A program made the position numbers and the translations under genes. From the NCBI GenBank assembly GCA_022566735.1, contig JADFIG010000001.1, positions 186,001-250,000 on the forward strand: 64,000 nt of DNA, read 5' to 3'. Shown one piece after another: positions 37,686-47,253 of this stretch (positions are counted from its first letter, which is position 1; each line of letters begins with the position of its first letter). The notes under the pieces were generated by a model. The model did not search any database and had not been told where the DNA came from. It saw nothing but the letters and a program-made list of their open reading frames with translations. This DNA comes from Pseudomonadota bacterium. Its GTDB lineage: Bacteria > Pseudomonadota > Gammaproteobacteria > Burkholderiales > Burkholderiaceae_C.

Positions 37686-39341
37686 ATGTCCATCCCTTCT
37701 GCCGCGCGCACCGACGCGTCTTCACACAACTTTGCCGAGCCAGGCTGGGCCCCGCCAGCGTCGGCCTGGGTGAACCGTTTTGCGCACTTCAGTCACGACA
37801 GCGCCCAGCGCCGCGAGGTGCCCCTGGGCACCGCCTTGCTGGGCGATCCGCTGCCGAACCCGCGCTGGGTGGCCACCAGCGAAACCCTGGCGCGCGAGCT
37901 CGGCTGGCCCGCAGGCTGGCAGGATGGGCAGGCGCTGCAGGTGTTCAGCGGCAACGCTGTCTGGCCGGGCATGTCGCCCATGGCCACGGTCTATTCAGGC
38001 CACCAGTTCGGCCAATGGGCGGGGCAGCTGGGCGACGGGCGGGCGCTGCTGCTGGGCGAGATCGACAGCCCCGCCGGTCCGCAGGAGGTGCAGCTCAAGG
38101 GCGCCGGCATGACGCCGTACTCCCGCCGTGCCGATGGCCGCGCCGTGCTGCGCTCCAGCATCCGCGAGTTCCTCTGCAGCGAGGCCATGCACGCCCTGGG
38201 CATCCCGACCACGCGCGCCCTGGCGCTGACGGCCTCGCCGGAGCCGGTGCGCCGCGAGACCCTGGAAACCGCCGCGGTGGTCACGCGCGTGGCCCCCAGC
38301 TTCATCCGCTTCGGCCATTTCGAGCACTTCGCGCACAGCGGCCGCCCGCGCCACCACGAGGCCCTGGCCGCGCTGCTGGATTTCGTCATCACCCACCACT
38401 TTCCCCACCTGAAAGAGCCGCCCCAGCCCGCCGCTCCGCCTGCGTTGGCCCTGCTGGGCGACGTGGTGCGGCGCACCGCCGAGCTCATGGCGGCCTGGCA
38501 ATCGGTGGGCTTCTGCCACGGGGTCATGAACACGGACAACATGTCCATCCTGGGGCTGACCATCGACTACGGCCCCTTCGGCTTCCTGGATGTGTTCGAC
38601 CCCGAGCACATCTGCAACCACTCCGACCCCCAGGGCCGCTACAGCTGGAACAACCAGCCGCAGATCGGCTACTGGAACCTGCGTGCCCTGGCGCAAGCCC
38701 TGCTGCCTTTGCTCCCCGGCGCGGAGGAAGGGGCGCAGGGGGCGCAGGAGGGGGCGCAGGAGGGGGCGCAGGAGGGGGCGCAGGAGGGGGCGCAGGCGCT
38801 CACCGAGGTGCTGCGCACCTACGAGCAGCGCTTCCCGCAGGCCATGAACGCCCGCTGGCGCGCCAAGCTGGGCCTGCAGGCCGAGCGCGAGGAAGACAGC
38901 GAACTCGCCCTCGACTTCCTGCGCCTGCTGGCTGCCGGGCGGGTGGACTTCACCATCGCCTTCCGGCGGCTCAGCGCCTTCGTGGCCGAGTTGCCGCCCG
39001 GGCAGGCTGGCGCCGACCCGCGCAACGCGCCGCTGCGCGACCTCTTCCTGGACCGCCCCGCCTTCGACGCCTGGGCGACGCGCTACCAGCAGCGCCTGCG
39101 CGCCGAGGGCAGCGTGGACGCCGAGCGTGCCGCGCGCATGCGCCGCGTCAACCCGGTCTACGTGCTGCGCAACCACCTGGCCGAAGTCGCCATCCGCCAG
39201 GCGCAGCGCGGCGACGACAGCGAGGTGCAGCGCCTGCACCGCCTGCTGCAGCGCCCCTTCGACGAGCAGCCCGGCTGCGAGGCCGAGGCCGACTTCCCGC
39301 CCGACTGGGCGCAATCCATCGAGGTGTCCTGTTCATCATGA
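37686..39341 (+). CDS. selO: Protein adenylyltransferase SelO (YdiU family)
   Basis: [24 protein letters not shown]...[45 protein letters not shown]...[24 protein letters not shown]. Confidence 0.95.
38727..38795 (+). repeat. In-frame 12-bp tandem repeat (GAGGGGGCGCAG)n inside selO encoding (EGAQ)n
   Basis: GAAGGGGCGCAG GGGGCGCAG then four perfect GAGGGGGCGCAG copies; protein [23 protein letters not shown]. Confidence 0.95.
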
Positions 39342-42465: not shown

Positions 42466-42629
42466 GGCCGTATTTTAGGGCCGAGGGTCTGCCCGCAGGC
42501 GACGCACCGGGAGCGTGCAAAACGCGCGTGAACAAATTGGCCAAGTGCCTGGCGAGGACTGAAACTGGTTGTGTTTTCGCCGGCTCATTCTGCGATCCTG
42601 AAGACATGGACAGGGCCCTGCTCGCCCCG

Positions 42630-42653
42630 AGCACCAGCACCAGCACCAGCACC
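42630..42653 (+). repeat. (AGCACC)x4 hexanucleotide repeat in the 5' region of the PEP-CTERM gene
   Basis: Four perfect contiguous copies. Confidence 0.9.
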
Positions 42654-42678
42654 CTGTGCAGTTGAAACGGAGGATCCC

Positions 42679-43407
42679 ATGGCATTGTTGACCCGCATCT
42701 CCTGGAGCGTCGGCCTGGGCGTCTGGGCCCTGAGCGCGCAGGCCATCCCCGTGACGATGCCGACGACCAACCTCGATGCCGAGGCCATCTACACCTTCCA
42801 GCAGGACACCGCCAGCCTGATGGACAGCATGGGCATCTCGGCGCACGCGCTGGGCAACACCCGGGCGGTCAACGGCAGTGCCTGGCAGTTCATGATGCCG
42901 GTGACCCAGGTGACGCTGGACATCGGGCTGTTCTCTCTGAAGCCCGAATCGGGCTTTGCCTCCGGTGCGGGCCTGTTGATCCGCAGCGAGTGGGGCGCGC
43001 TGACGCTGGCCAACTTCGGGCTGGACTTCAAACGCAATGTGCTGACCGCCGACCTCGGCACCGCCGCGGGCATCACCAGGACCTTCGACGTCTACAGCTT
43101 CACCGTGGACAAGGGCCTGCACCTGTCGACCACCGGCGGCCTGTCGATGGCGATGAACCTCTCGCACATGACCCTCACCGGCGGGGCGCAGACGGCGTTC
43201 GCCAACGCGCTGCAGCTGGAGGAGTACGCGGTGGCCGTGTTGCCGCTGATGGACTTCGGCACCCTGGACGTGAACATCTCGCCGGCCCTGCGCTTCGGTG
43301 TGTCGGACCAGGCGCTGGTCGCCGCCATCCCCGAGCCGCCGCGCTTTGCCACGCTGGGCCTGGGGTTGCTGGGGCTGGCCTTCGTGGCGCGACGCCGACT
43401 GTCCTGA
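42679..43407 (+). CDS. PEP-CTERM sorting domain-like exported protein
   Basis: N-terminal signal peptide (SVGLGVWALSAQA); C-terminus IPEPPRFATLGLGLLGLAFVARRRLS matches the PEP - TM - Arg-rich tripartite signal; CGGAGG SD. Confidence 0.7.
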   Translation: MALLTRISWSVGLGVWALSAQAIPVTMPTTNLDAEAIYTFQQDTASLMDSMGISAHALGNTRAVNGSAWQFMMPVTQVTLDIGLFSLKPESGFASGAGLLIRSEWGALTLANFGLDFKRNVLTADLGTAAGITRTFDVYSFTVDKGLHLSTTGGLSMAMNLSHMTLTGGAQTAFANALQLEEYAVAVLPLMDFGTLDVNISPALRFGVSDQALVAAIPEPPRFATLGLGLLGLAFVARRRLS

Positions 43408-43478: not shown

Positions 43479-43552
43479 GCGGGCGTCGTTCAATGGCAGG
43501 ACTTTTGCTTCCCAAGCAAATAACGTGGGTTCGATTCCCATCGCCCGCTCCA
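43479..43552 (+). tRNA. tRNA-Gly (anticodon CCC), CCA encoded
   Basis: GCGGGCG...CGCCCGC acceptor stem, anticodon arm TTTGC-TTCCCAA-GCAAA, T-arm GTGGG-TTCGATT-CCCAT; TACAAT -10-like at 43462-43467. Confidence 0.95.
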
Positions 43553-43665: not shown

Positions 43666-44727
43666 GTGAGTTTCAGTCGTCTCGATGGATTCCGGATCGC
43701 GGGTGTCAGCACCATCGTTCCTGCCACCCAGGTGGACAACCTCTCCCTGGGAGATCGCTACGGTGCGGACGACGTCCGCAAGGTGGTGTCCATGGCCGGT
43801 GTCCGCCAGCGCCATGTGGTCAGCGCGGGACAGACCTCCGTCGACCTGTGCACCGAGGCGGCGCAGCGCCTGCTCGACACCCTGGGCTGGGCCCCCGAGA
43901 GCGTCACCGGCCTGATCATGGTGACCCAGTCGCCGGATCACTTCCTGCCTTCGTCGGCCTGCGTGGTGCATGGCCGCCTGGGCATGGGCGTGGATTGCGC
44001 CGCCTTCGACGTCGGGCTGGGCTGCTCGGGCTACCCCTATGGCCTGTACCTGGCCGCGGCCATGCTCAAGGGCGGCGGACACCAGCGCATCCTGATGCTC
44101 AACGGCGACACGCCCAGCCGCTTCACCAGCCCCGATGACCACGCCACCACGCTGCTGTTTGGCGATGCCGGTTCGGCCACGGCGCTGGAGGCCGTGCCTG
44201 CCGGTGGGCCGGCGGCGCACTTCGGGCTGTTTTCCGATGGCGCGGGGGCCGAGGCCCTGATCATGAAGGGCGGCGCTTTCCGCGACCGTTTCCCCGCCGA
44301 TGCGCGGGACCTGTACGTGCGCATGGACGGCGCGGGCGTCTTCAACTTCACCATCAAGCGCGTGCCGCCCATGGTCCAGGACACCCTGAACGTGGCCGGG
44401 CTGGGCGTGCAGGACGTGGATGCCTACATCTTCCACCAGTCCAACCGCTTCATCATGAAGCACCTGATCAAGAAGTGCGGCCTGCCGGAAGACCGCGTGC
44501 CGTTCACGCTGGAGGAAACCGGCAACTGCGGCGGGCCGTCGGTGCCTGTCACGCTGACCCGCGGCCTCGCGCAGCGTCCCAAGGACCGCAGCCAGTGCGC
44601 GATGTTGCTGGGCTATGGCGTGGGCCTGTCATGGGCCTCTGCCATCATCCACCTGGATCCCGCCTGCGTGCTCCTGCATGGCGTGTCCACCGTCCCTTCC
44701 GACACTGTCCAGGATCCTGCCCCATGA
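43666..44727 (+). CDS. 3-oxoacyl-ACP synthase III (FabH-like) family protein
   Basis: C-H-N triad visible: DVGLGCSGYPYGL, YIFHQSNRFIMKHL, EETGNCGGPSVPV; GTG start. Confidence 0.9.
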   Translation: MSFSRLDGFRIAGVSTIVPATQVDNLSLGDRYGADDVRKVVSMAGVRQRHVVSAGQTSVDLCTEAAQRLLDTLGWAPESVTGLIMVTQSPDHFLPSSACVVHGRLGMGVDCAAFDVGLGCSGYPYGLYLAAAMLKGGGHQRILMLNGDTPSRFTSPDDHATTLLFGDAGSATALEAVPAGGPAAHFGLFSDGAGAEALIMKGGAFRDRFPADARDLYVRMDGAGVFNFTIKRVPPMVQDTLNVAGLGVQDVDAYIFHQSNRFIMKHLIKKCGLPEDRVPFTLEETGNCGGPSVPVTLTRGLAQRPKDRSQCAMLLGYGVGLSWASAIIHLDPACVLLHGVSTVPSDTVQDPAP

Positions 44728-44978
44728 GCCAGACCGCGATCACCCTGACCGAGGCCCTCGAGATGATGGCCGACGCGTTCAACGAGCCCCTGGAAAACGT
44801 CCGCCCGGACACGCCGCGCGACAGCATCCCCGGCTGGGATTCCATGGGCGCGCTGATGCTGATTGCCGAACTGGACGAGCGCTTCGGCATCGAGCTCACC
44901 GCCGAGGTGTCCCGCGAGATGCGCCAGGTGCAGCACGTGCTGGACTTCCTGGCGCAGCACGGCGCCTTGTCGGCATGA
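44724..44978 (+). CDS. Acyl carrier protein
   Basis: 4'-phosphopantetheine site GWDSMGALMLIAELDERFGIEL; ATGA overlap with the KASIII gene. Confidence 0.9.
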   Translation: MSQTAITLTEALEMMADAFNEPLENVRPDTPRDSIPGWDSMGALMLIAELDERFGIELTAEVSREMRQVQHVLDFLAQHGALSA

Positions 44979-44998
44979 GCGGCATGAACGGCATGAAG
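44972..44998 (+). repeat. 9-bp tandem repeat GGCATGA(G/A)(C/G) x3 across the ACP stop codon
   Basis: GGCATGAGC GGCATGAAC GGCATGAAG; repeated in-frame stops for ACP and repeated ATGs in another frame. Confidence 0.85.
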
Positions 44999-45018
44999 GC
45001 CTGAGCGGAGGGCGCGCG

Positions 45019-46287
45019 GTGGTGCAGGCAGCCCGTCCCGTCGCCGGTGCGTCGCCGAAGTCCCCGGCGGTGCCGAGCGCGCCCCAGCTGGCCCAGTCTG
45101 TCCAGCCGGCAGCCGTTGCGCAGCCCCCGGTCGCCCCGATCCCCCGCGAGAAAACCAGCCGCCTGGTGGCGCGCGCCCTGGGCCTGAGCCCGCAGGCGCT
45201 GGAAGAGGCCTTCCGCCCGGCAACGCCGGCCGATCTCCCGGGGGTGCTGGCCTTGCGGCACCGTGTGCTGGGGGAGGCCCTGAGCTGGGACGACGCGCGT
45301 TACGTGCGCTGGCGCTACCTGCCCGAGGCGGGCGGGCGTGGGCTGGCGACGTGCTGGGTCTGCGTGCGCGGCGAGGAGGTGCTGGGCATGATCGGCACCG
45401 AGGCCTTGCAGGTGAGCGCCGGGGAGGCGCGCCGCGAAGTGCACGCCGCCATGGACCTGATGGTGCGGCCCGATCTGGCTGACAGTGGCCTGGGCGTCTG
45501 GATCAACCAGACGGTGTGCGCCCGCCTGGGCTGCGTGCTGGCGATCGGCTCCAACCCCAACTCCAGGAGCGTGCTGGCGCGCACGTTCGAAACCCTGCCG
45601 GACCGCCGCTCCTACACGCACCCGCTGCATTTTGCGCACTTCATGGCCAAGCGCCTGTCGCCGCGGCCACTGGCCTGGCTGGCTTCGCGTGCGGCCGATC
45701 TGCTCATGGTGGGCTTGCGAGGCTGGCGCCTGTGGACACCGGGCGCGGGGCTGTCGATGGCGCAGTTGACGCACATGGATGACGCCGTGGCCGCCGACAT
45801 CGAGGCGCTGCTGCGCTCCGCACAACGCCCCGACCGGGTCGAGGTGGCGCGCGACGTGGCCACGCTGGCGCACAGGCTGCTGGCCAACCCGCGCACGCGC
45901 TGCGAGGTCTGGCTGGTTCGCCATGGCGCGCGGCCGGTGGGCATGGTGGCCACGCGCCGCGTTCCGATCGAGGAGGGGCGCCATGCTGTGCAGGTGCTTG
46001 ATGCGGTGCTGGATGCCACCCGGGGGCCCGCCGCCCAGCGAGCGGTCTTGCGCACCCTGCTGGCCGGGGTGTGCGCGCGGGCTTACCGGGGCGGCGCCGA
46101 CTACCTCAGCTGGACCTTGTACGACCCCGCCCTGGAGGCCGAGCTCCAGCCCCTGATGTTCCGCCTGCAGCCCCACCCGTTCGAAACCCTGTCCTGGGTC
46201 TGCCCGGATGCCGATTTCCGCGCGGCGGTGCTGTCGCGCCCGGGCTGGTCGCTCAGCGAGATCCACACCGACCGGGACTCGGCCTGA
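45019..46287 (+). CDS. GNAT-like acyl/acetyltransferase, large, co-operonic with KASIII and ACP
   Basis: FRPATPADLPGVLALRHRVLGEALSWDDARYVRWRYLPE...VHAAMDLMVRPDLADSGLGVWINQTVCARLGC; GTG start with GGAGG SD 7 nt upstream. Confidence 0.65.
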   Translation: MVQAARPVAGASPKSPAVPSAPQLAQSVQPAAVAQPPVAPIPREKTSRLVARALGLSPQALEEAFRPATPADLPGVLALRHRVLGEALSWDDARYVRWRYLPEAGGRGLATCWVCVRGEEVLGMIGTEALQVSAGEARREVHAAMDLMVRPDLADSGLGVWINQTVCARLGCVLAIGSNPNSRSVLARTFETLPDRRSYTHPLHFAHFMAKRLSPRPLAWLASRAADLLMVGLRGWRLWTPGAGLSMAQLTHMDDAVAADIEALLRSAQRPDRVEVARDVATLAHRLLANPRTRCEVWLVRHGARPVGMVATRRVPIEEGRHAVQVLDAVLDATRGPAAQRAVLRTLLAGVCARAYRGGADYLSWTLYDPALEAELQPLMFRLQPHPFETLSWVCPDADFRAAVLSRPGWSLSEIHTDRDSA

Positions 46288-46323: not shown

Positions 46324-47253
46324 TCAGTAGAAGATCGCCAGCAGCAGCCCGCCGATCAGCACCCACTTGCCCACGTAGTAGGCCGTGCGGTTCGTGGCTT
46401 TGAGCTGCTTGGCCTTTTCGCGGGCCTTGTAGGCCACGCCGAAGAACTTGTTGATGCCGCCGAGCTGCTCGCCTTGCTCGTTCTGCGTGGCCGAGGCCTT
46501 CATGACGATGGCGGCAAACACCTGGTTGAGCCAGCGCACCACCGGCGTGTAGACCGGGCGCTCGACGTCGGCGAACAGGATGATGCGCGGCTGCTGCGTG
46601 GTGTTGGCGGCGTGGTGGATGTAGGTCTCGTCGAACATCACGACCTCGCCGTCCTTCCAGTGGTAGCGCTGGCCATCGACCTCGATGAAGCAGCCCGGGT
46701 CGTTCGGTGTGATCAGGCCCAGGTGGTAGCGCAGCGAGCCGGCGTAGGGGTCACGGTGGCGCACCAGCGTGGCACCTGGCGGCAACGAAGCGAACATCGC
46801 GGCCTTGATGCCGGGGATCTGGTTGAGCAGGGCCACCGTCTTCGGGCAGCGCGCCATCGCCGAAGGCTGCTCCACGCCGTACCACTTCAGGTAGAAGCGC
46901 TTCCAGCCGGTGCGAAAGAACGAGTTGAAGCCGATGTCGTTGTAGCCATCGGCGGCCTTGATGTTGCCGCCTTCGTCGAGCGCCAGGGCCTCGTCGCGGA
47001 TCATCTGCCAGTTCTCTTGCAGCACCTTCAGCTCGGGGAACTGCTTGTCGTCCAGGTAGGGCTGGCTGCCGACCTTGGAAAACAGCACCATCAGCGAGTT
47101 GAAGGGCGCGATCAGCACGGTGAAGTCGGTGAGCGCGCGCACCAGGCCGAAGCGCACCTTGCCGCGGAAATGCGCGTGCAGTGCTGCGGCGATGAAGGTG
47201 ATGAGCACCCAGTGGCGGGGCGCCAGGGGCCAGAGGTCTTGAGCGAGGGTCAT
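46324..47253 (-). CDS. lpxO: Aspartyl/asparaginyl beta-hydroxylase family, lipid A hydroxylase LpxO-like
   Basis: LVRHRDPYAGSLRYHLGLITPNDPGCFIEVDGQRYHWKDGEVVMFDETYIHHAANTTQQPRIILFADVERP. Confidence 0.88.
   Translation of the reverse strand: MTLAQDLWPLAPRHWVLITFIAAALHAHFRGKVRFGLVRALTDFTVLIAPFNSLMVLFSKVGSQPYLDDKQFPELKVLQENWQMIRDEALALDEGGNIKAADGYNDIGFNSFFRTGWKRFYLKWYGVEQPSAMARCPKTVALLNQIPGIKAAMFASLPPGATLVRHRDPYAGSLRYHLGLITPNDPGCFIEVDGQRYHWKDGEVVMFDETYIHHAANTTQQPRIILFADVERPVYTPVVRWLNQVFAAIVMKASATQNEQGEQLGGINKFFGVAYKAREKAKQLKATNRTAYYVGKWVLIGGLLLAIFY

Follow-up and report, generated by a model that had tools for sequence, protein, structure and literature searches.

The window analyzed here is a 64,000-nucleotide stretch of an Aquabacterium-like genome (G000, 89% complete) that carries three tightly packed genes on the forward strand. 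The first (43666..44727; GTG start, TGA stop) encodes a KASIII-like 3-oxoacyl-ACP synthase and the second (44724..44978) a stand-alone acyl carrier protein (ACP2); the two are coupled through an ATGA at 44724–44727, in which the KASIII stop codon TGA overlaps the ACP2 ATG. The third (45019..46287; GTG start at 45019 or 45022) encodes an acyltransferase of about 421 residues from an unnamed tandem-GNAT family. The trio is flanked on the left by a tRNA-Gly gene (CCC; 43479..43552, forward strand), which is the fixed left boundary of a variable locus and lies outside the pathway, and on the right by a convergent gene for an LpxO-like Asp/Asn beta-hydroxylase (46324..47253, reverse strand; 445 bits against an LpxO model with a cutoff of 500). 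No recognizable sigma-70 promoter for the trio was found, nor were there remnants of lost genes above noise between the tRNA and the KASIII gene. Because fabH of this genome lies approximately 200 kb away on the same contig, as does a fabG-like gene, the trio is not the fab operon. The first-pass annotation had read the locus as a FabH-like protein with a complete Cys-His-Asn triad, an ATGA-coupled stand-alone ACP with a GWDSMG site, and a GNAT-like protein, all packed on one strand and outside the usual fab operon; the coordinates agree with it for all three genes, and Pfam domains for the KASIII and the ACP.

The KASIII contains both family domains (Pfam ACP_syn_III and ACP_syn_III_C), and the catalytic Cys, His, and Asn in its motifs GLGCSGYPYG, FHQSNRF, and GNCGG are retained in 13 of 13 orthologues. 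Orthologues were defined by at least 63% identity, which gives 13 loci (a search of 401 family genomes contributed six further ones); the KASIII of the window shares 66% identity with the one located beside an ACP and a GNAT in Methylibium and 63% with its counterpart in the same setting in Thiocapsa. A tree of 21 KASIIIs places all cluster and trio members in a single clade (100/99), apart from their own FabH and also from relatives of 42–47% identity. A housekeeping FabH is ruled out by this separate clade, by the 32–33% identity to the genome's own FabH, and by scores of 199 bits against TIGR00747 (cutoff 292) and 229 bits against PRK09352 (cutoff 249); the earlier proposal of a dedicated KASIII, which clustering with FabH would have undone, is thereby upheld. 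Kinship with DarB was likewise rejected, the DarB-family models giving 27–28 bits against cutoffs of 450–550. The best sequence match among solved structures is 4efi (280 bits). Every one of the 13 orthologues retains the Leu of an LPSS motif, whereas FabH of the window's genome carries Phe there; we take this residue to correspond to Phe87 in the pocket of E. coli FabH, and the enzyme may thus use a primer slightly different from that of FabH. Searches for plasmid-borne copies returned only relatives below 60% identity. The 42–47% relatives in family genomes (L108–L111) occur as tandem KASIII pairs followed by an SDR, another uncharacterized ACP-type arrangement.

ACP2 matches the PP-binding family (PF00550, 22.3 bits, cutoff 20.8), and its phosphopantetheine Ser, in GWDSMG, is preserved in all 10 orthologues printed, where the site reads GWDSMG or GWDSLG, and QWDSLG in Thiocapsa. 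The third protein (ACYLTRANSFERASE) has no match in Pfam, NCBIfam (at 0.001), or among PDB sequences, and its assignment as a GNAT of roughly 420 residues, although right, rests not on a family search but on a 39%-identical Methylibium relative that matches Acetyltransf_1 and on its predicted fold. An AlphaFold2 model built from six sequences (pLDDT 77.6, pTM 0.74) consists of two GNAT domains in tandem, and the conserved part of the protein begins near residue 40. The best Foldseek matches to this model are N-myristoyltransferases, themselves tandem GNATs, over nearly the whole length (E ~4e-14); with a TM-score of only 0.46–0.52 and 12–15% identity, the architecture is shared but the family is not. 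As to the parallel once drawn with LuxI-like proteins and N-acyl amino acid synthases, Pfam and NCBIfam (0.001) gave no match to a family model for LuxI, for FeeM, or for the N-acyl amino acid synthases associated with PEP-CTERM. Order- and class-wide profile searches added only two weak matches, which from their sequences appear to be GNATs among glycosyltransferase-like genes, and no plasmid-borne copies of the GNAT were found.

Comparison across genomes places the trio within a larger gene set. AsnB and an AMP ligase are linked to the KASIII orthologue at 9 of the 13 loci, and a further carrier protein (ACP1) and a NadE-like gene are present at all nine except one on a truncated contig (the L107 contig ends inside the AMP ligase). 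In the Aquabacterium genomes G999 and G1127 (L102 and L103), the order is NadE-like, AMP ligase, AsnB, ACP1, KASIII, ACP2, GNAT, LpxO, SSADH, and this full cluster occupies the same genomic position as the trio, between tRNA-Gly and LpxO–SSADH; the same tRNA-Gly stands at the same place in L102, L103, L006, L007, and L088, the last of which lacks the trio. The order in Methylibium sp. NZG is AsnB, AMP ligase, ACP1, NadE-like, PrmC-like, KASIII, SDR, ACP2, GNAT, and Thiocapsa marina, which lies outside the family, carries these nine genes as two groups that face each other. KASIII, ACP, and GNAT are adjacent, or split only by the cluster SDR, in all three genera, so the neighborhood check proposed with the first annotation comes out in favor of co-conservation. 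At five Burkholderiales loci (L064 in G198, and L104–L107), an N-acyltransferase of the AAC(3) family (assigned to Antibiotic_NAT by Pfam in the case of L064) takes the place of the GNAT, in the order AAC(3)-like, SDR, ACP2, second SDR, KASIII, AsnB, AMP ligase, ACP1, NadE-like; in those examined, ACP2 and the second SDR are separated by a FabZ-like gene. The cluster SDR is found in Methylibium, Thiocapsa, and these five loci. Among 200 family genomes, the window's left out, 12 carry the NadE-like gene, and the 2 that have the GNAT belong to these 12 (hypergeometric chance 66/19900 = 0.003, uncorrected for kinship). The trio is part of a larger, undescribed biosynthetic gene cluster, the other half of which is missing from the locus in the window and in three further genomes. 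The notion of a dedicated pathway therefore holds for the dedicated KASIII, the ACP of its own, and the acyltransferase, but the trio is half of this cluster and not the whole pathway.

Related sets exist without the KASIII: at L057, L058, L060, and L061, AsnB, AMP ligase, ACP, and NadE-like genes occur together, with a PrmC-like gene in three of the four and a divergent GNAT of their own, the latter with a similar C-terminal motif in three. GNATs with a comparable W-L-T...D-D ending adjoin some of these AsnB sets. The NadE-like gene of the broader set is present in about 6% of family genomes, and we found no description of the set.

Several of the larger loci are embedded among surface-polysaccharide genes. 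The G198 cluster is near exosortase B, EpsD, and an XrtA-type ATPase fused to a WecB-like epimerase, as well as a cytidylyltransferase-like gene and a PIG-L de-N-acetylase; a C-methyltransferase and a sugar epimerase lie downstream of the cluster in L104 and L106, and a PIG-L N-deacetylase is present in L104 and L068. The Thiocapsa locus includes glycosyltransferases and a Wzm-like permease, and sugar-biosynthesis or exosortase neighbors recur in genera g97, g92, and g99. The Aquabacterium and Methylibium clusters stand alone, outside any polysaccharide locus, and the genes next to the trio in the window include neither a glycosyltransferase nor a nucleotide-sugar gene. Because of the polysaccharide-type settings, decoration of a surface glycan is favored over a free lipid or signal.

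The closest described parallel is the viosamine island of Pseudomonas syringae pv. tabaci 6605, in which vioS (KASIII), acp, vioR (reductase), and vioB serve the synthesis of N-(3-hydroxybutyryl)viosamine (PMC3927599). Deletion of vioR removes the modified viosamine from flagellin, and a short acyl chain has been proposed to be built on the ACP and then moved to the sugar amine (PMC3927599). This island and orfB–orfE of the P. aeruginosa PAK glycosylation island likewise comprise a KASIII, a stand-alone ACP, a 3-oxoacyl-ACP reductase, and an acyltransferase. KASIII, ACP, and acyltransferase also occur together here, but the acyltransferase is the 421-residue tandem GNAT, or an AAC(3)-like enzyme elsewhere; vioA, vioM, and vioT are absent; AsnB, AMP ligase, ACP1, and NadE are additional; and the Aquabacterium cluster is without a dedicated 3-oxoacyl-ACP reductase, with no SDR more than about 37% identical to the cluster SDR in the Aquabacterium genomes searched. 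A similar grouping, with an ACP, a 3-oxoacyl-ACP reductase, and an AMP-dependent synthetase among glycan genes, occurs in Aeromonas group II polar flagellin glycosylation islands; they differ, in the available portion of the account of them, by the lack of KASIII, AsnB, and NadE and by the presence of LuxC and LuxE (PMC7874193). Among exosortase (XrtA/PEP-CTERM) exopolysaccharide genes, the TIGR03098 acyl-CoA ligase (492 bits) and the TIGR03108 amidotransferase (465 bits) are near relatives of the cluster AMP ligase and AsnB, which nonetheless fall below the respective cutoffs (592 and 817), and the cluster differs in holding KASIII, ACP2, NadE, and GNAT. When the literature was searched for O-antigen or exosortase clusters with a KASIII, the papers on viosamine and on Aeromonas came nearest. 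By analogy, the trio would best be read as working like an ACP-dependent sugar N-acylation module.

With moderate confidence, we propose that the trio is the module by which the larger cluster makes and transfers an acyl group, and that this cluster most likely decorates a sugar of a surface polysaccharide. The KASIII would condense a short acyl primer with malonyl-ACP2 to yield 3-oxoacyl-ACP2, which could be reduced to 3-hydroxyacyl-ACP2 by the cluster SDR, or by housekeeping FabG in Aquabacterium; the SDR and FabZ-like genes of the other clusters fit with such acyl-ACP processing. The tandem GNAT would then move the acyl group from ACP2 to an amine, probably that of a nucleotide-activated amino sugar. 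Enzymes of the AAC(3) type acylate the amines of amino sugars, and the strongest hint of an amine acceptor is that one of them can replace the GNAT. As a conjecture, the AMP ligase and ACP1 may load, and AsnB and the NadE-like protein amidate, a second group on the same glycan, with the PrmC-like protein perhaps belonging to the same loading and amidation steps. What the substrates, acceptor, and product would be, and what the amidotransferases would do, is here inferred from knowledge of the families.

As the AMP ligase, AsnB, and NadE are not part of the viosamine module, the product may be more complex or different. We suggest, tentatively and with less assurance than the module itself, that the cluster represents an undescribed class of ACP-dependent pathway with two parallel carriers, in which a 3-oxoacyl or 3-hydroxyacyl group transferred by a new tandem-GNAT N-acyltransferase would be combined with an acid activated by the AMP ligase and amidated by AsnB/NadE, to yield either a doubly modified sugar or a new acyl-amide metabolite. 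Bacteria interact differently with their surroundings when their surface sugars carry short acyl groups, and to our knowledge few enzymes are known that transfer an acyl group from a dedicated ACP to a sugar amine. The cluster is a conserved system whose tandem-GNAT family is named in no library searched; at some loci an AAC(3)-like enzyme has naturally replaced the GNAT in what appears to be the same reaction, and the amidotransferases of the cluster are without an assigned role.

A rather unlikely, though the strongest, alternative is that the complete cluster produces a small acylated molecule in free form (a signal, a siderophore-like compound, or an N-acyl amino acid amide) and that its polysaccharide neighbors are incidental. 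The stand-alone clusters of Methylibium and Aquabacterium leave room for a free metabolite; their enzyme set is near-complete, the AMP ligase, ACP, and amidotransferases are akin to genes for the assembly of small molecules, and ACP1 gives weak scores to cispentacin and ornithine-lipid ACPs. Against this reading stand the GNAT's lack of a Pfam or NCBIfam model match, the fact that no dedicated exporter or regulator was seen conserved with the cluster, and the recurrence of sugar or exosortase neighbors in three genera. Of the first suggestion that the trio makes an acylated small molecule or unusual lipid, the acyl-transfer module therefore stands, while the genomic contexts shift the preferred product to a surface glycan and leave a free acylated product as a lesser possibility.

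The trio-only loci (the window, nzgw550, A. commune, and YR_bin) form one clade (100/99), and the full-cluster Aquabacterium genomes are their sister in the KASIII tree; since this is so, one loss of the other half in the ancestor of the four would be the simplest reading. Values of dN/dS within the clade are 0.08–0.17 for KASIII, 0.12–0.19 for ACP2, and 0.18–0.30 for the GNAT; the trio is under purifying selection and hence not decaying. This persistence after the loss would accord with a module repurposed for a simpler, separate acylation without AsnB, AMP ligase, ACP1, and NadE at the locus, which we consider improbable. A. commune and nzgw550, two of the four, possess a set of AsnB, AMP ligase, ACP1, NadE-like, and PrmC-like genes at another locus, in which no GNAT of its own is detectable, so that service in trans is conceivable, which counts against repurposing; the AsnB, AMP ligase, and NadE of this remote set are nearer to the Methylibium type (66–68%) than to the G999/G1127 set (52, 38–39, and 62%, respectively), which counts for it. 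The other half was not found in the window's assembly, but a DNA match to tmk and holB, which neighbor the set in A. commune, is also missing there, so an assembly gap is possible and the absence is uncertain. The type strain A. commune DSM 11901 has both halves at separate loci, which makes their mutual dependence directly testable.

Slightly less probable than repurposing is that the trio and the adjacent LpxO-like hydroxylase constitute a lipid A modification island acting on the lipid A or core of LPS. At all Aquabacterium loci with the trio, the LpxO-like gene lies next to it, and G160, of the same genus, has neither at the syntenic place, which marks the interval from tRNA-Gly to SSADH as variable. 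However, the LpxO-like gene is convergent and not co-transcribed with the trio, is not beside the cluster in Methylibium, Thiocapsa, or the AAC(3)-type loci, and the GNAT carries no Lpx-type acyltransferase signature in Pfam or NCBIfam. A fortuitous neighborhood of unrelated genes, which the rarity of the GNAT (3 of 201 family genomes, the window's included) might suggest, is refuted by the adjacency kept in Aquabacterium, Methylibium, and Thiocapsa and by the ATGA coupling, and is very improbable.

G160 carries a different gene pair, one TetR-like by sequence, in the interval between tRNA-Gly and SSADH. Just left of the tRNA in the window, a gene at 42571–43407 (forward strand) encodes a PEP-CTERM-type protein with weak NCBIfam matches to the C-terminal sorting region; its position is conserved in the Aquabacterium genomes examined, and a similar-looking gene stands at the same place in G160. 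Farther left, a perfect 12-bp tandem repeat in five copies (38737–38796) within the SelO gene encodes an insertion of GAQE repeats.
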